Shown here piece by piece: positions 1 to 32,159 of a stretch of DNA of 52,539 nt. The DNA comes from Terriglobia bacterium. GTDB taxonomy: Bacteria; Acidobacteriota; Terriglobia; UBA7540. The translations under genes and the position numbers were made by a program. The notes beneath the pieces are model-generated. The model did not search any database. It saw only the letters and a list, made by a program, of their open reading frames with translations, and was not told where the DNA came from. Location: the NCBI GenBank assembly GCA_020073545.1, contig JAIQEZ010000014.1, positions 1 to 52,539 on the forward strand. The letters run 5' to 3'. Each line of letters opens with the position of its first letter. Within the stretch, counting starts at the first letter, position 1.

Positions 1-266
1 GGGGGCAAGAGAAATTATGAATTTTGAATGCTGAATTATGAATTGCGGAGGTGGGCGGCGAGCGTCTCTTAGCTGCTTACTGCGTTCTGCCTACTGCCTA
101 GTGCCTGCTGCCTACCGCCACTGCCTACTGCCTTCTGCTTACTGCCTACTCTCTCGCGCTTCGGGCAATAGGCGGCGAAACGAAAACGGGTCGGCACGAT
201 TGATTTCGCCGTGCCTGCTGACCTGAAGGTCAGCGCTACGACCTCCTGCTGACCTGAAAATCAGCG
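1..266. other. Gene-free repeat-rich segment
   Basis: I see no convincing gene here. The first 45 bases are AT-rich, with GAATTATGAATT-like words occurring twice. Bases 72-150 hold a degenerate run of CTGCCTA-type heptamers (with CTGCTTA, TTGCCTA-like and similar variants), an eroded version of the array at 267-364. Two palindromic repeats of a dispersed family lie at 216-239 and 247-270. The 62-codon open frame across this stretch is low in complexity and is probably not translated. Confidence 0.7.
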
Positions 267-385: not shown

Positions 386-1729
386 TCAGAACGCCAGGTA
401 GACGGGGTTTTCGAGAATCTGTTTGAGGGTTTGGAGGAACTTCGCGCCGGTGGCGCCGTCCACCACCCGGTGGTCGCAGGAAAGGGTCAGCCGGCAGCGC
501 CAGCCGACTTCCACGCGCCCGTCCACCACGACCGGCTTCTCCGTCACCGCGCCCACGGCCAGGATGGCGCCTTCCGGCGGATTGATCACCGCGGCAAACT
601 CCTCGATCCCCATCATGCCGAGGTTCGAAACCGAGAAGGTGGAACCCACGTACTCGTCCGGCAGGAGCTTGCGGGTGCGCGCGCGCCCGGCAAGGTCTTT
701 CGTCTCGCGGGAAATCTCCTGCAAGCTCTTCGCATCGCCATTGCGGATGACGGGCGTGATCAGCCCGCCTCCGTCGGTGGCCACCGCCATGCCCAGGTGC
801 ACGCGATTGTGATAGCGAATGGACTCGCCTTGGAACGACGCGTTCACCTCGGGATGCTGCCGTAGCGCCGCGGCGCAGGCTTTCAGAATAATGTCGTTGT
901 AGCTGAGCTTGAGGGCGGGGTCGAGCAGGTTCGCAGACTCACGCAGGTCCTTGGCGCGCTTCATATCCACTTCGATGGTGAGATAGAAATGCGGCACGGG
1001 AGCCTTGCTCTCGACCAGGCGCTTGGCGATGGTCTTGCGCATGGAGCTGAGCGGCTCGTCGAAAAACTCCGGACCGGTCGGAGCGGCTGGGGGCCGGCGC
1101 AGCGGCGTAGGAGCAGGCGCACGCACAGGAGAAGGTGCTTCGCGGCCGGCTGCCGCGCGCGCATGGGAAGGCAGCGCGGCACTGCGCTCCACGTCCTGGC
1201 GAATGATCCTTCCACCCGGGCCCGTTCCAGCGATGCTGTCAAGGTCGAGGCCCATTTCCTTTGCCATCTTCCTCGCCAAGGGCGACGCCAGCACACGGCC
1301 ACTAGACGCAGGAGCGGGCGCGGCCGGGAGGGTTCCTCCCGCCGCGGGGGCAGGCGAGGGAGCGGTGGCAGGAGAAGCCGCCATTGCCTTTCCCGCGGAA
1401 GCCGTGGCCGCGGCGCTGGCCGCTGCAGGCGGGGGAGCCATAGCGGCTTTGCCGTCGCCTTTTATTAGCACGGAAATATCCTCGTCGGGCTTCCCGATGA
1501 CCGCCAGCAATTGGCCCACGGGCACGACCTTGCCGGGCTCCACCAGGATTTTTCGGAGCACGCCGCCACCTATCGCCTCCACTTCCATGTCCACCTTGTC
1601 GGTTTCGATTTCGACGACGGTGTCGCCGGTGGAGACGGGGTCACCTTCCTTCTTGAGCCACTTCAGGACCTTGCCCTCCGTCATCGTGTCGCTGCCCTTC
1701 GGCATCATTACCTTAACGGCCATCGCCAT
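386..1729 (-). CDS. pdhC: Pyruvate dehydrogenase E2, dihydrolipoamide acetyltransferase
   Basis: Core acyltransferase of the cytoplasmic pyruvate dehydrogenase complex; it moves the acetyl group from lipoyl-lysine to CoA. A single lipoyl domain covers residues 1-80, with lipoylated Lys45 in [11 protein letters not shown]. An Ala/Pro-rich linker follows, then a peripheral subunit-binding domain at about 147-182 ([21 protein letters not shown]). The catalytic domain runs from about 225 to the end and closes with DHRVVDGA, where His420 and Asp424 are the expected catalytic residues. A GAGGA ribosome-binding site sits only three bases before the first ATG but six before the ATG at 1723, so translation may start at 1723. 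Third gene of pdhA-pdhB-pdhC. The branched-chain or 2-oxoglutarate versions are possible, but the operon favours pyruvate. Confidence 0.93.
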
Positions 1730-1760: not shown

Positions 1761-1814
1761 TTGTAGGGCCACCCCTTGGGGCGGCCTCGGCCGGGGCAAG
1801 CCCCGGCCCTACAA
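1761..1814. repeat. Cloverleaf-like palindromic element within the pdh operon
   Basis: A perfect 10-bp inverted repeat (TTGTAGGGCC at 1761-1770, GGCCCTACAA at 1805-1814) encloses three smaller palindromes in a row: CCCCTTGGGG (1772-1781), GGCCTCGGCC (1783-1792) and GGGGCAAGCCCC (1793-1804). As RNA this would fold into a closing stem plus three hairpins. It lies between pdhB (stop at 1867) and pdhC (start at 1729), so it would be part of the polycistronic mRNA. It could be a REP-like mobile repeat or an mRNA processing or stabilising element. Confidence 0.7.
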
Positions 1815-1866
1815 ACCCTTCTGGCGTGTTTGGGTGCGGCCAAAGGCCGCCGTGCGCCACAAGTTT

Positions 1867-2871
1867 TTACGCGTGGCCTTGGGCCCCGACTCCTTGCCGG
1901 TAGAGCACACGGTAGACGGCGTCCTTCACACGCTGCTTAGCGGGCAGCGCCAGGTGTTCCAGGTTCTTCGCGTAGGGCATGGGAACGTCCGCGCCGGTCA
2001 CCCGCAGGATAGGCGCGTCGAGATAATCGAAGGCCCCGTGCTGGATTACGTCCACGAACTGCGCGCCCACGCCGTATTGTGGCCAGCCTTCTTCGACTAT
2101 CACCACGCGATTCGTCTTCTTCACGGAGTTCAGGAGGGTTTCGACATCCAGCGGACGCAGCGTGCGCGGGTCCACCACTTCGACCTCGATTCCTTCCTTT
2201 GCCAGGTCCGCGGCGGCGTCCAGAGCCACCAGCAGCATCTTGGAGTGCGCGATCACGGTCACGTCGCGGCCCGGCCGCTTGACATCGGCCACGCCCAGCG
2301 GGGTGAGATATTCCCCATCGGGGACTTCGCCGCGCGTGCCATAGAGCACTTCCGACTCGATGAAGACCACGGGGTTGTTGTCGCGGATGGAAGTCTTGAG
2401 CAGACCCTTGGCGTCCGCCGGCGTCGCGGGGGTGACAACTTTTAAACCTGGGACGTGACAGAACCAGGCTTCCAGCGACTGCGAGTGCTGCGCGGCGAGC
2501 TGGTGCCCGGCCCCGCCCGGCCCCCGCACTACCAGGGGGATGGAAAACTGCCCGCCGGACATGTAGAGCATCTTCGCGGCACTGTTCACGATCTGGTCGA
2601 GCGCCAGCAGCGCGAAGTTGAAGGTCATCATCTCCACGATGGGCCGCACTCCCACCATCGCCGCGCCCACGCCGAGCCCCGTAAAGCCCAGCTCCGTAAT
2701 CGGCGTGTCGAGCACCCGCATGGGCCCGAACTCGTCGAGCAGCCCCTTGCTCACTTTGTAGGCGCCCTGATAGAAGCCCACCTCTTCGCCCATCAGCACG
2801 ATGGTTTCATCGCGACGCATTTCTTCGCGCATCGCTTGGTTGAGGGCTTCGCGATAAGTCATGATGGACAT
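1867..2871 (-). CDS. pdhB: Pyruvate dehydrogenase E1 component, beta subunit
   Basis: Beta subunit of the thiamine-diphosphate-dependent E1 decarboxylase; with the alpha subunit it decarboxylates pyruvate and acetylates the E2 lipoyl group. Length (334 residues) is normal for the family. Typical landmarks are the N-terminal YREALNQAMREEM, GEEVGFYQGAYKVSKGL at about 29-45, DTPITELGFTGLGVGAAM at about 55-73 (cofactor pocket) and the transketolase C-terminal domain from about 200, with VVDPRTLRPLD. A GGAG ribosome-binding site lies about ten bases before the ATG. It is separated from pdhA by 119 bases and from pdhC by 137, both gaps holding palindromes. Confidence 0.94.
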   Translation of the reverse strand: MSIMTYREALNQAMREEMRRDETIVLMGEEVGFYQGAYKVSKGLLDEFGPMRVLDTPITELGFTGLGVGAAMVGVRPIVEMMTFNFALLALDQIVNSAAKMLYMSGGQFSIPLVVRGPGGAGHQLAAQHSQSLEAWFCHVPGLKVVTPATPADAKGLLKTSIRDNNPVVFIESEVLYGTRGEVPDGEYLTPLGVADVKRPGRDVTVIAHSKMLLVALDAAADLAKEGIEVEVVDPRTLRPLDVETLLNSVKKTNRVVIVEEGWPQYGVGAQFVDVIQHGAFDYLDAPILRVTGADVPMPYAKNLEHLALPAKQRVKDAVYRVLYRQGVGAQGHA

Positions 2872-2903: not shown

Positions 2904-2927
2904 GTAGCGCCGAGCTTCAGCTCGGCA
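2904..2927. repeat. Dispersed 24-bp palindrome in the pdhA-pdhB gap
   Basis: The core is GCCGAGCT-TC-AGCTCGGC, a perfect 8-bp stem with a two-base centre, preceded by GTAGC. It is the same repeat family as 216-239, 247-270 and 23188-23211 but with compensating changes in both arms. In the pdh transcript it would form a tight hairpin between pdhA and pdhB. Confidence 0.65.
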
Positions 2928-2990: not shown

Positions 2991-4055
2991 CTAATCCACA
3001 TACACGTCCGTGCCGAGTTCCTTGGGGTCGGGTTCGGGGCTTCGCTCCGCGAACGCCACCGCCTCCTCAACCATATCGCGGACCTTCTGCTCGAGTTCGT
3101 CGAGATACTCCTGGTTGACGATTCCCGTCGCCTCCAGGGCCGCGGTGAACTGCTTGATGGGATCGTGCCGCCGCTGCTCTTCCACTTCCGACTTGGTGCG
3201 GTAGTGGCCGTGCGAGGGGTCGGACATGGAATGGCCCATGAAACGGTAGGTGCGCGCTTCGATGAGCGTGGGAGCGGATGCTTGGCGCGCGCGGTCTACG
3301 GCCTCTTTGAGTGTTTCGCGGACGGCCAGGACATCCATGCCGTCCACCCACGTGCGTGCCATGTTGTAAGCGCAAGCCTTCTGCGAGAGGTCGTAGAGGG
3401 TGGAGGCGCGCTCAATGGGCGTCCCCATGCCGAAGCGATTGTTTTCGCAGATGAAGACCACGGGGAGTTTCCAGAGGGCGGCCAGGTTCAACGACTCATG
3501 AAACGAGCCGATGTTGACTGCCGCCTCTCCGAAGAAGCAGAGCGTGACGCGCGATTGCTGGAAATACTTGGAGGCAAAGGCCGCGCCCGCGGCCAGCGGG
3601 ATCTGCCCGCCCACAATGGCATGGCCGCCCAGAAAACCGCGCCGCTTGTCGAAGAGATGCATCGACCCACCCTTGCCCTTGGAGACGCCGCTCTGCTTGC
3701 CGCAGAGTTCCGCCATCACTTCGCCGGGATCCATGCCCCGGACCAGCGCGTGACCGTGCTCGCGGTAGGAAGTGAAAATGTAGTCGTCGGGTTGGGTAGT
3801 GGAAAGGGCTCCCACCGCCACCGCTTCCTGCCCGATGTAGAGATGACAGAAGCCCCCGATTTTCCCCAGCGTGTAGAGTTCTGCGGCTTTTTCCTCGAAA
3901 CGGCGGACGAGCAGCATCTGCTCCAACATGGTCTTGAGCAGGGTGAGATCCTCGCGCCGCGCCCGCTCTTCCATGGTCCCCGCCGCAGGTTGGCCCGGCG
4001 CACACATGAGATCGGCCAGGTTGGCCGTCTTCGTGGCGGCGTTGGATGATTTCAT
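2991..4055 (-). CDS. pdhA: Pyruvate dehydrogenase E1 component, alpha subunit
   Basis: Thiamine-diphosphate-binding alpha subunit of E1. The ATG at 4055 is chosen because it has a strong GGAGGG site just upstream and gives the usual family length (354 residues); the longer open frame to 4286 has no support. Landmarks include FEEKAAELYTLGKIGGFCHL, the substrate loop GGSMHLFDKRRGFLGGHAIV and the cofactor motif region CFFGEAAVNIGSFHESLN...CENN. The canonical GDG..N metal/ThDP motif reads GEAAVN here, so Asp is replaced by Glu and the second Gly by Ala. The C-terminal phosphorylation-loop-like segment YRFMGHSMSDPSHGHYRTKSE is typical. It is the first gene of pdhA-pdhB-pdhC; no E3 gene is nearby. 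Confidence 0.94.
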   Translation of the reverse strand: MKSSNAATKTANLADLMCAPGQPAAGTMEERARREDLTLLKTMLEQMLLVRRFEEKAAELYTLGKIGGFCHLYIGQEAVAVGALSTTQPDDYIFTSYREHGHALVRGMDPGEVMAELCGKQSGVSKGKGGSMHLFDKRRGFLGGHAIVGGQIPLAAGAAFASKYFQQSRVTLCFFGEAAVNIGSFHESLNLAALWKLPVVFICENNRFGMGTPIERASTLYDLSQKACAYNMARTWVDGMDVLAVRETLKEAVDRARQASAPTLIEARTYRFMGHSMSDPSHGHYRTKSEVEEQRRHDPIKQFTAALEATGIVNQEYLDELEQKVRDMVEEAVAFAERSPEPDPKELGTDVYVD

Positions 4056-4431
4056 CGCTACCCTCCTCAGATCTCCCCCCAAGAAAAAGACGTCTTGTAC
4101 AAAGGTCACCCGCTGCCGACAGGCCCAGCCCCAAATCCCAAAAACTCTGTGCCTATATCCTACCAATTTTAATCGGTTTCTCGAATGAGCGAAACCCCAA
4201 AGATAGGTCCGAGGGGCGCGAACCTCAGCCGGCAGCCGTTCCACCACGTTTGTGGGCACGCTTTTAACAAGACCATATTCTCCCACGTTCGCGGGAGCTG
4301 TCCAAGGGCTCGGCGGCTCAGTCGGCGAGGATACTGCGTGTTCCCCCTTGAGTAGGCCGGGTTTTTAATTTCCCCGTTCCTTCTGGACCACACGGCGCTG
4401 GACACGCGCGAAATTATTCCGCAAAATACTG
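4056..4431. other. Divergent intergenic region upstream of pdhA
   Basis: 376 bases between the pdhA start (minus strand) and an unknown gene on the plus strand. It should carry the pdh operon promoter. On the minus strand there is an AT-rich stretch near 4150-4175 with a GGATATAGG word that could be a -10 box, but no convincing -35 box. I see no RNA gene or repeat. Confidence 0.4.
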
Positions 4432-16267: not shown

Positions 16268-18367
16268 ATGAATCATTGCAGAGAGACCTTCAGGCGCACG
16301 ACTTACAGAAGTGCGAACCCGCAAAAGGCGCTCGCGTTCGCACTTCTGAGCACACTGCTGGCTGTGAGCTGGGTTGTTTGGCCGCCAAGCTCGAAGCTGA
16401 ACGCTCGTGCGCGGACATCACTGCAGGCGGTCACGGATCAGACGAGCTACAACGTTGGCTCGGAAGTCCGCCTGCAGATTCTTCTTCCCACACCACAAGA
16501 GGTCACATCAGTTCCCCTCGACGTTGTCGCTTTCGTTCGCTACGCGGGTGAAGACCGACCCTTGAACAGGGATGGGACGACAATCCTGTCGAACCTCTCT
16601 CTTGCCCGCGAGGCGTCGGCGGGCGGCTATCGGACTTTATGGGAAATTCCGATCGAGGCGCGCACCGGAAGGTACGAAATTGATCTGGTGGCGCGAGACT
16701 CCAAAACGCGCGAGGAGGTTCTGAACGTGCCGCGGGCCGCGTCGTTCGCGGTGCATCGAAAACTCGTCGAGATCGATCGAATTCAGCTCAACAAGGCATT
16801 CTATGCTCCGGGAGATGTCGTTGCGTGCCGTGTTTCCCTTCACAATCTCACCGATCACAGGCTCGAAGGCCTGCGCGTGGAGTTTTCGGATCGTTACTGG
16901 CCCTGGATCGCCGGCCCCGCGGAGCTCGCGGCAGCGAGCATCGTCACGTTGACGGATAGGTTATCGTTCTTGCCAAAAGGAGAGGAGCAACTTTCGTCCG
17001 AGCATGCGGCGGTCGCAAAAGCCGTCTCCGGACCCGCGGTTCATCAGTATGGAGTTGTCGTCTGGGACCGGGATCGCAAGACCGTGTATGACATCGCCCT
17101 CAGCCCCCTGGTTTTCATCAATCCCCCTGGAGTGGATGCGCCCAAGCCTTACCCTGGGCAATACATTTACCCCAAGCTGGATGGGGTCAACACCGCAAGC
17201 TATCGGCAGTTCCATCCCAAACCATTCAGTGCGGGTGCCATTCAGTTTGATACTGGCCACTCGATGTTCGCGTCGGGGGCCGAAGCCACAGTGAAATTCT
17301 CGATTGTAAACCCGACGGACAGCACTTGGCGCCGGGTGTCGGTGCGGGCGCGTCTGGTTGGTCCCAACGAGAAACAGCAAGCGACGCAGGTTGTGGCGGA
17401 GGGAGTTGACCTTAACCCGCACGGCGCGCCATTGGTGAAGGAAGCGAAGTTCAGCCTTCCGCAGAACGCGAGTGGACTCTACCAAGTGCGGGTTGAGCTA
17501 ATCGAGGCCTTAGGACAGGCGCTCGCCTCGAACGCGCTCGAACTCGGCGTCAATCCTCTTCCCAAGTCCGTGGTGCTGTTCTGCGCGCACGAGGACGACG
17601 ATGGAACGCAGATGGGGATGATTCGCGCCGCGGTGGAGAACCACATTCCTTTACACGTGGTTTACCTCACAAGTGGCGATGCAGGCGCCTGCGATCGCTA
17701 CTATGAGCATTCCTGCGGCCCGGCCGAGGCGTTGAACTTTGGAGCCCTCCGCATGGAAGAAGCGCGCGCTGCGCTGGGCCACCTCGGCGTGCCGCGCGAG
17801 AACATTCTCTTCCTGGGTTTGCCGGATGGCGGTTCGGGCAAGATCTGGTACGACCACCCTCGGTCGTCTGATCCGTATCTTTCTGTTCTGCTGGCGAGCG
17901 ACCATGCACCCTACGACGGTCTCTTCCGGCCGAATCTGCCGTTTTCCCGGGAGGCTGTCGTCGAGGCGGTGGAAGAGATTGTCAAGAAGTTTCAACCCGA
18001 AGTCGTCTTCACTGCACACCCGCCTGCGGAGGGTCACATCGACCACATCGTGACCAACTATTTCGTTGTGAAGGCACTGCAACAATTGCTCCGCGAGGGC
18101 GCCATCCCAGCCAACCTCGAAGTGCGCGTGGACCGCATCTTTGACCCCAAGAGCCATCCCGCTACTCCCTACCATTATGAGGATCACATGTTCCATGTCT
18201 CGGGCGAAGCAATGGCGCTGGCTCAAGAGGCTGGATGGTATTATCAATCGCAGGGAGGCAACCGGGCGCAAGGAAACCTGCGCACCTGGGATCAACTGCC
18301 CCGCAGCGAAGGCTACCGCAAAATGTTAGACTGGAAGGAGCACGAAGGGTGGAACGAGAAAGAGTGA
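16268..18367 (+). CDS. Exported PIG-L/LmbE-type deacetylase with long N-terminal extension
   Basis: A 699-residue protein with an N-terminal hydrophobic helix at about 22-40 (signal or anchor). Residues about 50-430 look like beta-rich, Ig-like repeats and contain no catalytic motif. From about 434 comes a PIG-L/LmbE-family zinc hydrolase domain: AHEDDD (440-445) supplies the first metal ligands and HIDH (590-593) the third. The family removes N-acetyl or other acyl groups from sugar derivatives. The classic AHPDDE reads AHEDDD. The extracytoplasmic location suggests action on cell-surface or environmental amino sugars. It is followed after three bases by a zinc-ribbon membrane protein. Substrate unknown. 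Confidence 0.8.
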   Translation: MNHCRETFRRTTYRSANPQKALAFALLSTLLAVSWVVWPPSSKLNARARTSLQAVTDQTSYNVGSEVRLQILLPTPQEVTSVPLDVVAFVRYAGEDRPLNRDGTTILSNLSLAREASAGGYRTLWEIPIEARTGRYEIDLVARDSKTREEVLNVPRAASFAVHRKLVEIDRIQLNKAFYAPGDVVACRVSLHNLTDHRLEGLRVEFSDRYWPWIAGPAELAAASIVTLTDRLSFLPKGEEQLSSEHAAVAKAVSGPAVHQYGVVVWDRDRKTVYDIALSPLVFINPPGVDAPKPYPGQYIYPKLDGVNTASYRQFHPKPFSAGAIQFDTGHSMFASGAEATVKFSIVNPTDSTWRRVSVRARLVGPNEKQQATQVVAEGVDLNPHGAPLVKEAKFSLPQNASGLYQVRVELIEALGQALASNALELGVNPLPKSVVLFCAHEDDDGTQMGMIRAAVENHIPLHVVYLTSGDAGACDRYYEHSCGPAEALNFGALRMEEARAALGHLGVPRENILFLGLPDGGSGKIWYDHPRSSDPYLSVLLASDHAPYDGLFRPNLPFSREAVVEAVEEIVKKFQPEVVFTAHPPAEGHIDHIVTNYFVVKALQQLLREGAIPANLEVRVDRIFDPKSHPATPYHYEDHMFHVSGEAMALAQEAGWYYQSQGGNRAQGNLRTWDQLPRSEGYRKMLDWKEHEGWNEKE

Positions 18368-24789: not shown

Positions 24790-24940
24790 GGTGTGCTCCT
24801 TGAATGTGGTTTGCCGCGACGGCCGCAGGTCGTGCGGCCGTCGCGGACGTGCCTTTTGACCCGACGCCCTCACGGGCGAGACGCCCGCGTGCAGTGAGCA
24901 GTATGGGCGGCGCTCGCCGCCCGAAGGTTCTCCGGCCCGC

Positions 24941-25558
24941 TCACCGGGGCCGGGTTTGAGTTTCCGTTTCCAAAGCCAGCGGCGCCGGCCGAGCCCAGCT
25001 TCCGCTGAAGACGAAATCCGCCAGCGGCTTGCGAGTGCGTGCGGCCGGAGGCTCCGCCGGCCCTTCCAGGTAGCCCAGCGCCAACACGGCCACAGGTTCG
25101 AAGCCCGCGGGAATGGCGAAAAGCTCCCGAGCCAAGTGCGCGTCAAATCCGCCCATCTGGTGGATGTAGAGATCGAGCGACGTCGCGTCGACGGTCAGGT
25201 TCGCGACCGCCTGGCCCAGGTCGTAGAATGCGTGACGATTGGGGCTGGCGACATGGTCGAATTCCAGTTTGGCAACCGCCAGGATCAGAACCGGCGCTCG
25301 CTGCGCCCACTGGCGGTTGGCGTCGGCCAAGGTGCTGAGCACGCGGTTGTAGCCCTCCGCGTCTTCGCGCGTGGCCAAAATGAAGGCCCAGGGCTGGGCG
25401 TTGTAGCTCGAAGGCGCCCAGCGCGCCGCCTGGAAAAGCCGCACGAGCTGTGCAGGCTCGACAGGGCGCGCGGAAAACGCGCGCGGGCTCCAACGACGGG
25501 CCAAAAGCTCGTGGATTTCCGGCTCGCGGGTTCGGCTTGCCTGGATGGTCGCTTGCAT
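24941..25558 (-). CDS. Nitroreductase-family flavoprotein
   Basis: FMN-dependent NAD(P)H oxidoreductase acting on nitro compounds or quinones. 205 residues from ATG 25558, where the upstream GGAAGGGGGG is the ribosome-binding site. The N-terminal RRWSPRAFSARPV and PSSYNAQPWAF are FMN-contacting signatures; the C-terminal GFEPVAVLALGYLEGPAE is typical. The gene has its own promoter at 25629-25657, sharing an element with the marR promoter, so it is a likely direct MarR target. Confidence 0.9.
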   Translation of the reverse strand: MQATIQASRTREPEIHELLARRWSPRAFSARPVEPAQLVRLFQAARWAPSSYNAQPWAFILATREDAEGYNRVLSTLADANRQWAQRAPVLILAVAKLEFDHVASPNRHAFYDLGQAVANLTVDATSLDLYIHQMGGFDAHLARELFAIPAGFEPVAVLALGYLEGPAEPPAARTRKPLADFVFSGSWARPAPLALETETQTRPR

Positions 25559-29274: not shown

Positions 29275-30504
29275 TCATCTGACCGGCGCCGCGGCCTGTT
29301 GGATCGCTTGGATCACTTCCTCGTTTCCTCCTGCCGCCCGAATGTCGTTCAGATCGCCAGCGCTAGGCGAGAACTTGAGGCCGCGGTCTTTGACGAGCTC
29401 CACGATTCGCGAGTTGGGGACTCCGCCCTGGAGCAAGGAGATAATGTCCTGCTTGCCCAGCGCCCGGGGATTCGGGGGAGCTGCTTTGGGTGTGAAATGC
29501 GCAACAAAGCTGAATTTGGATTTCGCTTGAGCCGAGTTAGTGGCAACGACCTCAAAGGTATTATCGCCAGGCTTGAGGGTGATGGGATCCGACCAGAACT
29601 CTGCAGCCTGCGCGCTCTTGAGCCGCAACATTGCAGGCGCGCCGTTGATCGTTACGGTCGGGAAACCAGAGTTATCCATGGCCACACCACGAACGGTGAG
29701 GGGGGATTCATTGACCTGGACGGTCTGGTTCTCACCTGCTCCGGAAGGGGCAACGAGCACGACCGTTGGCGGAGAGGGGGGTGGCACAGTTTTGGGCTCC
29801 GGCGGGGGCGCAACTGCAGGTTGCACCGCTGCGGCCGGCGGCACCGCGGCTTGCTGCTTGAGTTTGAAGGCCGCCACGACCCCGTCAAAATTCTGAAGCG
29901 CTCGCAGGATCAGCGGGGTGTAAAGGGAATCGGCCTTTGCGACACTATTCACAGAAGCGTCTGCCGAATCAGCCGCGTCCCAGTGGTTTTCCGCCGCATA
30001 CCCGAAGAAGTGCCTTAGCTTAAGAGCTCGGAACGCGGTTGCGCCGTATTCGATCTTTGGGTCGACGATTTCTGCCCGGCTGACCTCGAACCCTGCGTCA
30101 GTTTCCTTAGTAATCCGCGATTGCCGAACCATAGCGTACCGAACTGCATCACGGCTGATTTCTAGCCAGCCGTAGGAAGCCCTGATCCTCGGCTTGAGTA
30201 ACGTCCAGTTTAGGCTGGAATGGCCAACCGGGAAGCGCAGCGTGGGGTTCGTATCTGCGTTGGTCAGTTGAACGTCCTCGGGCAGATTGGCAGGAGAGGA
30301 AGGGGGTGCCGCTCGGGTTACTCCAGGGGCTTTGGCCCGTTCACCGCCATCAGGTAGATTGGCAGGGCTTTCCGCAGCCGGCCGCACAACCGCGCCACGC
30401 GCGGGAGGGTCCGCAGCTCGAACCAGCCCGGAGCCTGCGAAACACAGGCAGACTGACAGCGCTGCCAGGAGTCGCAGGGGTTGGGATCGCCTTTCCGGGA
30501 TCAT
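29275..30504 (-). CDS. Secreted protein, tandem paralogue B (Ig-like domain and C-terminal helical domain)
   Basis: About 409 residues from ATG 30504, with a signal peptide (LLAALSVCLCFAGSGLVRA). After a Pro/Ala-rich region, residues about 55-190 contain DTNPTLRFPVGHSS and a segment shared with the paralogue at 30797-31900. A glucodextranase-B/Ig-like domain follows (VLVAPSGAGENQTVQVNES, WSDPITLKPGDNTFEVVATN). The C-terminal 60 residues (KQDIISLLQGGVPNSRIVEL, DRGLKFSPSAGDLNDIRAAG) are a helical module I believe is widespread in acidobacterial proteins. Function unknown. Start lacks a strong ribosome-binding site. Confidence 0.78.
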   Translation of the reverse strand: MIPERRSQPLRLLAALSVCLCFAGSGLVRAADPPARGAVVRPAAESPANLPDGGERAKAPGVTRAAPPSSPANLPEDVQLTNADTNPTLRFPVGHSSLNWTLLKPRIRASYGWLEISRDAVRYAMVRQSRITKETDAGFEVSRAEIVDPKIEYGATAFRALKLRHFFGYAAENHWDAADSADASVNSVAKADSLYTPLILRALQNFDGVVAAFKLKQQAAVPPAAAVQPAVAPPPEPKTVPPPSPPTVVLVAPSGAGENQTVQVNESPLTVRGVAMDNSGFPTVTINGAPAMLRLKSAQAAEFWSDPITLKPGDNTFEVVATNSAQAKSKFSFVAHFTPKAAPPNPRALGKQDIISLLQGGVPNSRIVELVKDRGLKFSPSAGDLNDIRAAGGNEEVIQAIQQAAAPVR

Positions 30505-30691
30505 TTCACGCCGTTTTCGGGCCGTCGGGATCCTCTTTCGGGAGTCACTCCCCACGCCACCTCAAAAAAAGTTCTTCACGCTCGCGCGGCCAGCAGATTA
30601 TCTCACCGTTTCGACGCGCGGAGCAAACGTGAAGAGTACTGTGCACCAACCCCCCCCGGAACGGAACTCGAGGAACGCCTCGGGATGGCTG

Positions 30692-30800
30692 CTAGTGCCG
30701 TTCCAACTTGCCTTGGCTAATCCCGCCCTGCGGGATTCATCTTTCAGGCCGTGCAATTGTGGTCGCCGCGATTGCGCGGAGTAAGTTGGAACGGCACTAG
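30692..30800. mobile_element. 109-bp inverted-repeat element, copy 1
   Basis: Perfect 18-bp terminal inverted repeats: CTAGTGCCGTTCCAACTT (30692-30709) and its reverse complement (30783-30800). The interior holds a perfect hairpin ATCCCGC-CCT-GCGGGAT (30720-30736). No open frame. The right end overlaps the stop codon of the gene at 30797-31900, which uses the TAG of the element. A second element with the same ends is at 40718-40825. The size and ends fit a MITE or a large REP-type repeat. Confidence 0.75.
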
Positions 30801-31900
30801 GGGTGCGGAGCGGCCTCCTGGATTGCCTGGATCAGCTCATCGTTTCCACCGCCCCCGCGAATGTCGTTCAGATCGTCAGCGGTGGGCGAGAACTTGAGGC
30901 CACGGTCTTTGATAATCTCCGCGATGCGCGCGTTGGGGACTCCACCCTGGAGCAAGGAGATAATATCCTGTTTGGCTAGTGCGCGGGGATTTGGGGGAGC
31001 GGCCTTGGGTGTGTAATGAACGAGGAAGACGAGCCTGGCCTCCACATGGGCGGAGTTGGAGGCACTGATCTCGATGCGGTTACCTCCGGGCTGAAGCGGC
31101 AGCGGGTCCGACCAGAACTCGGCCGCTTGCGTGCTTTGCGGCCGCATATTGGTGGGCGACCCATTGATGGTGACGACCGGGATGCCGGTGCTGTCCATGA
31201 CCACGCCGCGGATGACCAGAGGGGATCCATTAACCTCGAGGGTCTGGTCCGCGCGTGCACCCAAGGGAGCAGACAGCACGATCACAGGGGGAGCAGCGGG
31301 CTTGGGTTCCGGTGCAGGGCTTACGAGGGGTTGCGCCACAACGGGCGGAGGAGTGGGAGGCGGCTTGACCATGGCGAGCACGCGATCGAAGTTCTTGATG
31401 GCTTGGTAAATCGAGCCCGTCCCCAGGGAGCCCTGACTGGCGGCGGCCATGGTTCCCGGGCCGCTGTGGATACTCCCCCAGCGATCCTGCGGCAAGTAGA
31501 AGATGTTAAACTTTTTCTTATCCCTGTGGAACTGCAGGTACATCTCTATCTTGACTTCGCTGATCTCCCCAGTGGGGATGTCGAATCCCTCGTTCAGCTT
31601 TCCGGCAGGTTGCATCACACTGTAGTGGATCCTACCCTGCGACACATCGAGCCAGCCGTAGGATAGGCTGTTAACGGACCAGCCAGAGATGTTCCCAATC
31701 GGGTAACGTAACGTCGGGTTGGTGTCGGCATTCAGAAGCTGGGGCTTGAGAGCATCTTCGATGTCTGCGTCATCAACCCTCCCGCCACGTCTGCTGCTGC
31801 CCTTTCTGGCGAATTGGGCTGCTGCCGCCGAAGTCATGCTGACCATTAAGAAGAGTGCAAGAGCCCAACGGCCCTTTTGCCAACCCTCGCGGTTCAGGCT
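30797..31900 (-). CDS. Secreted protein, tandem paralogue A
   Basis: 367 residues from ATG 31900 (GGGAGG site), signal peptide MSLNREGWQKGRWALALFLM followed by MVSMTSAAAA. Domain order matches the gene at 29275-30504: DTNPTLRYPIGN, a middle region, proline-rich linker, Ig/glucodextranase-like part (VIVLSAPLGARADQTLEVNG, WSDPLPLQPGGNRIEISASN) and the C-terminal module KQDIISLLQGGVPNARIAEI, DRGLKFSPTADDLNDIRGGG. The pair arose by tandem duplication. Its TAG stop belongs to the inverted-repeat element at 30692-30800. Role unknown; envelope-associated. Confidence 0.8.
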   Translation of the reverse strand, partial: SLNREGWQKGRWALALFLMVSMTSAAAAQFARKGSSRRGGRVDDADIEDALKPQLLNADTNPTLRYPIGNISGWSVNSLSYGWLDVSQGRIHYSVMQPAGKLNEGFDIPTGEISEVKIEMYLQFHRDKKKFNIFYLPQDRWGSIHSGPGTMAAASQGSLGTGSIYQAIKNFDRVLAMVKPPPTPPPVVAQPLVSPAPEPKPAAPPVIVLSAPLGARADQTLEVNGSPLVIRGVVMDSTGIPVVTINGSPTNMRPQSTQAAEFWSDPLPLQPGGNRIEISASNSAHVEARLVFLVHYTPKAAPPNPRALAKQDIISLLQGGVPNARIAEIIKDRGLKFSPTADDLNDIRGGGGNDELIQAIQEAAPHP

Positions 31901-32159
31901 CATCGGAAATGGACCTCCCCCCTTTTGCGGCTCAGGCGCTTGCGCTTCCGCGGGCCCCATACAAACCATCGGCTCTTGGAAGGTCGTATCTTAATCTCCT
32001 TCGCAAACACGCAGCCGATCCCGCGGCAGATCAACCTGGCCCTTATTATTCCACTCTCGGGAGAGAAGTTTCAACCGGCTTGCAGGATTCCGGCAGCGTC
32101 AAGCATTTTGTGTAAATTCCTCGAGGGGTTTTCTCTCCCAGGAGCGGTTCAAGTGACTG

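Follow-up and report, generated by a model that had tools for sequence, protein, structure and literature searches.

A GTAG-tagged REP pair in the pdhB-pdhC spacer of an acidobacterial genome, very probably one copy of a mobile repeat

Introduction

Inverted pairs of GTAG-tagged palindromes are known as REPINs or BIMEs and are thought to be moved by HUH transposases of the RAYT (TnpA-REP) type (PMC3116915, PMC8266576, PMC3733652). In E. coli, REPs residing in operon spacers can stabilise the upstream mRNA, an established effect that is cited in PMC6006769. Acidobacteriota are absent from the phyla that the 2013 survey lists for GTAG repeats (PMC3733652).

Here, we analysed a stretch of 52,539 nucleotides (the window) from a Terriglobia bacterium of the phylum Acidobacteriota (GCA_020073545.1, contig JAIQEZ010000014.1), which carries a 54-base palindrome in the pyruvate dehydrogenase operon. 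We conclude that this feature is very probably one copy of a REPIN, a mobile pair of GTAG REPs, which came to its place by insertion. Three described systems come closest. With the REPs of RAYT subclass 2.4 (RAYT group 4; PMC3116915, PMC6006769), the window's family shares the GTAG foot, G-C pairs at the stem base and the arrangement in inverted pairs; it differs in an exact stem sequence that is new in what was searched, in a spacer of 2 bp only, in that a cognate RAYT was not located and in that its longest copies sit in a 154-nt composite. The GTAG-17 head-to-head dimers of Opitutus terrae (PMC3733652), which belong to a different phylum and are likened here by their published description rather than by sequence, likewise carry the GTAG tags on the outside and have partners 1-2 bp apart. 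The BIMEs/REPs of E. coli share the GTAG foot with hairpin, the succession of REP and inverted REP and the location in operon spacers, whereas the stems of the window's family are near-perfect with loops of 2-4 nt and no bulge, the linker is 2 bp long and copies number in the tens, not the hundreds.

Results

Location and sequence of the palindrome

The palindrome is located, as described beforehand, in the pdhB-pdhC spacer of a pdhABC operon on the minus strand (Table 1). NCBIfam models support all three gene names, the E1 models with scores above their cut-offs and the E2 model with 441.3 against a cut-off of 445. Relatives suggest that pdhC starts at its second ATG, at 1723, and the true start of pdhA is probably internal to the longest ORF. 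Within the pdh message, the REPIN core begins 52 nt past the pdhB stop and ends 26 nt ahead of the Shine-Dalgarno motif GAGGA.

Table 1 Features of the pdh locus (window coordinates).
Feature	Position	Strand	Basis
REPIN core: head-to-head pair of GTAG-tagged REP hairpins, 2 bp between them, 6-bp basal stem	1761..1814	.	sequence, fold, copies, covariation
REP arm 1, GTAGGGCCACCCCTTGGGGCGGCC; GTAG tag 1763-1766, hairpin 1767-1786	1763..1786	+	sequence
REP arm 2, GTAGGGCCGGGGCTTGCCCCGGCC as minus-strand reading; GTAG tag 1812-1809	1789..1812	-	sequence
Whole repeat copy in the window: left module (1860-1815) and dimer	1762..1860	-	alignment of copies
pdhC, E2 dihydrolipoamide acetyltransferase	386..1729	-	NCBIfam, relatives
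pdhB, E1 beta subunit	1867..2871	-	NCBIfam
pdhA, E1 alpha subunit (longest ORF)	2991..4286	-	NCBIfam
Second-family GTAG REP, GTAGCGCCGAGCTTCAGCTCGGC, in the pdhA-pdhB spacer	2904..2926	+	sequence pattern
Second-family GTAG REP, GTAGCGCTGACCTTCAGGTCAGC, downstream of pdhC	217..239	-	sequence pattern

Positions 1761-1814 read, in order, TTGTAGGGCC ACCCCTTGGGGC GGCC TC GGCC GGGGCAAGCCCC GGCCCTACAA; the dimer of the family is GGCCGGGGCTTGCCCCGGCC. A preliminary description had pointed out a perfect 10-bp closing stem and three inner palindromes, and both are present: the arms TTGTAGGGCC (1761-1770) and GGCCCTACAA (1805-1814) pair throughout, and CCCC-TT-GGGG, GGCC-TC-GGCC and GGGGC-AA-GCCCC lie between them. 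The GTAG tags stand at the foot of palindromes of 20-50 nt, as in REPs of the GTAG class, and two such REPs in inverted orientation form a single unit, as in REPINs and BIMEs.

The same description held the arrangement to be far more than chance would give. In the window, 7 distinct perfect inverted repeats (14 including nested ones) have arms of 10 nt or longer separated by no more than 40 nt, compared to a mean of 3.2 and a maximum of 11 in first-order simulations; the outer 10-bp stem by itself is thus mildly unusual, no more. The claim stands for the arrangement as a whole, since an arrangement that recurs about 20 times across the genome cannot be due to chance. Further perfect inverted repeats, again with arms no shorter than 10 nt, were observed at 16306-16348, 16421-16477, 24814-24846 and 25273-25319 (e.g. 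CAGAAGTGCGAAC..GTTCGCACTTCTG); none of these four carries a GTAG tag.

Fold and covariation

Whether predicted as RNA or as DNA, the stable fold consists of two adjacent 8-bp hairpins (GGCCGGGG/CCCCGGCC and GGCCGCCC/GGGUGGCC on the minus strand) carried by a basal stem of 6 bp, TTGTAG/CTACAA. As DNA, the 54-mer folds with a z-score of -3.1; for the RNA fold of the entire spacer we obtained z = -3.2, and none of 200 shuffled sequences folded as well. The cloverleaf proposed earlier, with three arms on the 10-bp stem, was abandoned: its predicted energy is -29.0 kcal/mol compared to -40.6 kcal/mol for the twin hairpins (a difference of 11.6 kcal/mol), and its covariation is lower. The stable arms do not correspond to the three small palindromes, whose loops measure 2 nt.

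Covariation was assessed across 29 distinct copies of the repeat against shuffles. Under the two-hairpin model, 31 cells show a change in both partners (mean of the shuffles 6.9), and the score is 0.175 (shuffled 0.084), a value that none of 500 shuffles attained; since the copies are related to each other, these counts are no probabilities. For the same copies, the cloverleaf yields 23 two-sided cells and a score of 0.134. Compensatory changes, each found in 7 copies, convert GC to AU in columns 11-22, CG to AU in columns 34-43 and CG to GC in columns 36-41, while columns 33-44, a pair that exists in the two-hairpin model only, vary between GC, GU and AU. Sliding the partners by 1-3 columns lowered pairing from 94% to 36-54%. 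The GTAG and CTAC columns are conserved in 86-93% of the copies. The hairpins are hence kept through compensatory changes, and the structure is maintained across the family as a property of the repeat at every site, not of the pdh operon. An Rfam search with the element gave no match above the gathering score.

Copies in the genome and in relatives

The genome holds 21 matches at E <= 3e-4, 8 of them nearly full length. The frame GTAGGGCC(10-40)GGCCCTAC, a search for which had been proposed, was found at 7 places in the genome, and the reversed pattern used as control at none. In the sister species G006 of the same genus there are at least 40 matches to the long form. No copies were detected in the remaining seven genomes of the genus in the set, and other genera of the family, together with a few of the class, hold fewer or more diverged ones. 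The flanks of the copies are unrelated to one another. Among GTDB contigs, from which records very close to the window were possibly excluded, the strict dimer pattern matched only in two Acidobacteria MAGs, PMYF fen_180 and QHZO gp13 AA73.

The longest form is a 154-nt composite of a GTAG-tagged palindrome module (approximately 46 nt), the dimer and an AT-rich tail (approximately 55 nt), and is conserved across all three parts in about a dozen copies. Many copies are partial and comprise the dimer alone, module and dimer, or dimer and tail; the numerous dimer-only copies end sharply at the GTAG tags. The window's copy matches positions 1-99 of the long form at 88% identity and lacks the right tail. 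The genomic setting of 29 copies could be classified with a crude gene finder based on codon usage: co-directional genes surround 18 of them, convergent genes 6 and divergent genes 4, and 1 is intragenic. The copies are thus dispersed and mostly outside genes, and their number is modest. Another copy, in G006 (C431, L166), begins exactly where an apparent FtsX-like permease gene ends (..MVALRYE-stop), with the GTAG tag providing the TAG stop.

The pdh spacers of relatives

Comparison of the same spacer in related genomes, likewise suggested beforehand, was possible for 12 relatives with an identifiable pdhB-pdhC junction, and the window's element is present in none of them. In G006 the spacer is occupied by a stem-loop repeat of 96 nt that occurs about 40 times in that genome. 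In G016 it holds an unrelated GTAG dimer, GTAGCGGCGGTCGATGATCGCCGCCCGGCGCTCGCAGAGTGCCGCTAC, for which there are 20 matches in G016 itself and, in G007 and G005, 38-48 (both strands counted). The spacers of G001, G005, G007 and G008 contain other sequence (94-368 nt), and those of six relatives measure 12-43 nt only. Judged from these spacers, the window's element is a lineage-specific insertion and not a conserved pdh regulator. Between the spacers of the window and G006 nothing is alignable past the ribosome-binding site; with no empty site whose flanks could be aligned, the insertion junction is not fixed.

Further repeats were noticed in and around the operon. A degenerate copy of the window's family lies in G006 38 nt before pdhB (C880:8694-8803, L174), in the operon's other spacer. 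A second GTAG family (GTAGCGCYGANCTTYAGNTCRGC), present in the window at 214-268 and 2880-2926, occurs at 22 exact-pattern places in the genome, with several inverted pairs 20-50 nt apart. Downstream of pdhC, positions 73-376 form a degenerate tandem array of a 14-mer unit resembling CTGCCTACTGCCTT. The simplest reading is that the pdh spacers tolerate insertions. Elsewhere in the window (29275-31969, minus strand), two adjacent related ORFs of 426 and 390 aa, likely a tandem duplication, are 76% identical over a 300-bp 3' part.

RAYT transposases

REPINs are expected to share their genome with a RAYT gene, and the window's genome contains 9 matches to PF01797; one of these genes exceeds the NCBIfam RAYT cut-off and another matches below it. 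RAYTs of the MPNHxHGI type, here and in relatives, carry GTAGGG(G/C)C dimers on their flanks and inside the gene, with the same architecture as the window's dimer. These RAYTs appear to match the described subclass 2.4, to which in-gene insertions are reported to be unique (PMC6006769), an assignment made by motifs and in-gene insertions and not by a tree. The dimer flanking a RAYT of G001 (C280), GTAGGGCCGAGCAGCGCTCGGCCCGGGCCGAAGGCTCTTCGGCCCTAC, has the window's frame GTAGGGCC...GGCCCTAC but two different hairpins, and at a RAYT of G030 (C32) the stem GGGGCAGGGCTTGCCCTGCCC is close to that of the window.

Beside the window's exact family, no RAYT was found in G000 or G006, which are drafts of 261 and approximately 990 contigs, and a HUH-motif scan of the loci around the repeat copies found none. 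At the PF01797 RAYT loci of these two genomes the window's repeat occurs once only, approximately 1.6 kb from the RAYT of contig C240; this RAYT is accompanied on each side, at a distance of about 230 nt, by different GTAG hairpins of its own.

In this genus, the RAYT genes at L123 and L127 (G000:C110, C240) and at L131, L138 and L141 (G006) are each bracketed by inverted GTAG hairpins that differ from one RAYT to the next, the REPtron arrangement. In G056 (C8, L051; 1504 and 1809), MPNHMHGI of a RAYT gene is followed by an in-frame, REP-encoded VGAGLAPP, and the RAYT segment that comes next is partially repeated once more downstream. GTAG REPs were also seen inside Ser/Thr protein kinase genes of three genomes (L178, G006:C837; L053, G024:C228; L038, G011:C205); at L038 the kinase frame remains open through several REP-encoded stretches, e.g. 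VGAGLAPS and VGAGLKPAPT.

Discussion

Dispersed copies that covary and are specific to a lineage in their place bear out one of the two proposals of the preliminary description, a mobile structured repeat. Absence of covariation combined with a single occurrence had been named as the evidence that would speak against it, and the opposite was observed on both points: the copies covary and about 20 exist in the genome. Four observations stand against the REPIN reading. No RAYT gene adjoins the exact family in G000 or G006, though both are fragmented drafts; the copy number is low for REPs; many copies have extra conserved flanks (the 154-nt form) that are superfluous for a plain REPIN; and no empty site turned up that would define the insertion junction. 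Alternatively, the unit might be the 154-nt form, with the REP pair as its middle; it would then be a non-autonomous element, such as a MITE, for which a transposase other than a RAYT is responsible. The conservation of all three parts in about a dozen copies and the missing cognate RAYT next to the family would fit. We regard this as unlikely: many copies are a bare dimer that ends sharply at the GTAG tags, the 154-nt form lacks terminal inverted repeats, target duplication is not evident by eye, and the left module itself opens with GTAG and a palindrome, as REP clusters do.

The other proposal was that the element sets the ratio of E1 to E2. Stable hairpins in the mRNA between pdhB and pdhC, and the mRNA stabilisation cited for REPs in E. 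coli operon spacers, would suit an RNA element for processing or stability that is conserved and under selection in the pdh operon to balance E1 against E2 output. As an evolved function this finds no support here and is very improbable, as all 12 orthologous spacers lack the element, the same element sits at about 20 unrelated places, the covariation belongs to the repeat wherever it is located, no terminator is present at it, and the pdhC ribosome-binding site is predicted to be about equally open when the element is deleted from the sequence. An intrinsic terminator or attenuator might also come to mind, given G+C-rich hairpins in an intergenic position, but no T-run follows the hairpins on either strand, scans for terminators and promoters found none at the element, and termination there would cut off the E2 gene; this explanation is extremely improbable. 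The variety of fillers allows for yet another scenario, in which the pdhB-pdhC spacer is repeatedly colonised by unrelated structured repeats because a hairpin there aids the E1:E2 balance. The window's REPIN, the GTAG dimer of G016, the stem-loop repeat with about 40 copies in G006 and the other fillers in G005, G007 and G008 would be its cases. We consider such convergent recruitment, by whichever mobile hairpin arrives, very improbable.

If the element is a REPIN, the two head-to-head GTAG REPs would form twin hairpins in single-stranded DNA (or RNA), a RAYT encoded elsewhere would recognise GTAG foot and hairpin, and this HUH/Y1 transposase (TnpA-REP) would copy the unit around the genome as single-stranded DNA. 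Since no RAYT was found next to the exact family, we infer the RAYT step, including which RAYT would have moved the window's copy, from the architecture. In the pdh message, the twin hairpins would come to lie between the pdhB stop and the ribosome-binding site of pdhC. There they may have a mild side effect on the decay of pdhA-pdhB mRNA relative to that of pdhC; were 3'-5' decay of the upstream pdhAB message slowed, this would be a by-product of the landing site.

We thus regard the repeat as a new sequence family within a known kind of mobile DNA. It adds a clearly covarying family to the GTAG REP dimers, in Acidobacteriota, and illustrates that a single operon collects REPs of two families in and around its spacers. 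Ideas on the control of pyruvate dehydrogenase are left unchanged by this finding, which calls for caution elsewhere: a conspicuous palindrome between two genes of an operon need not be a regulator and may be a mobile repeat.
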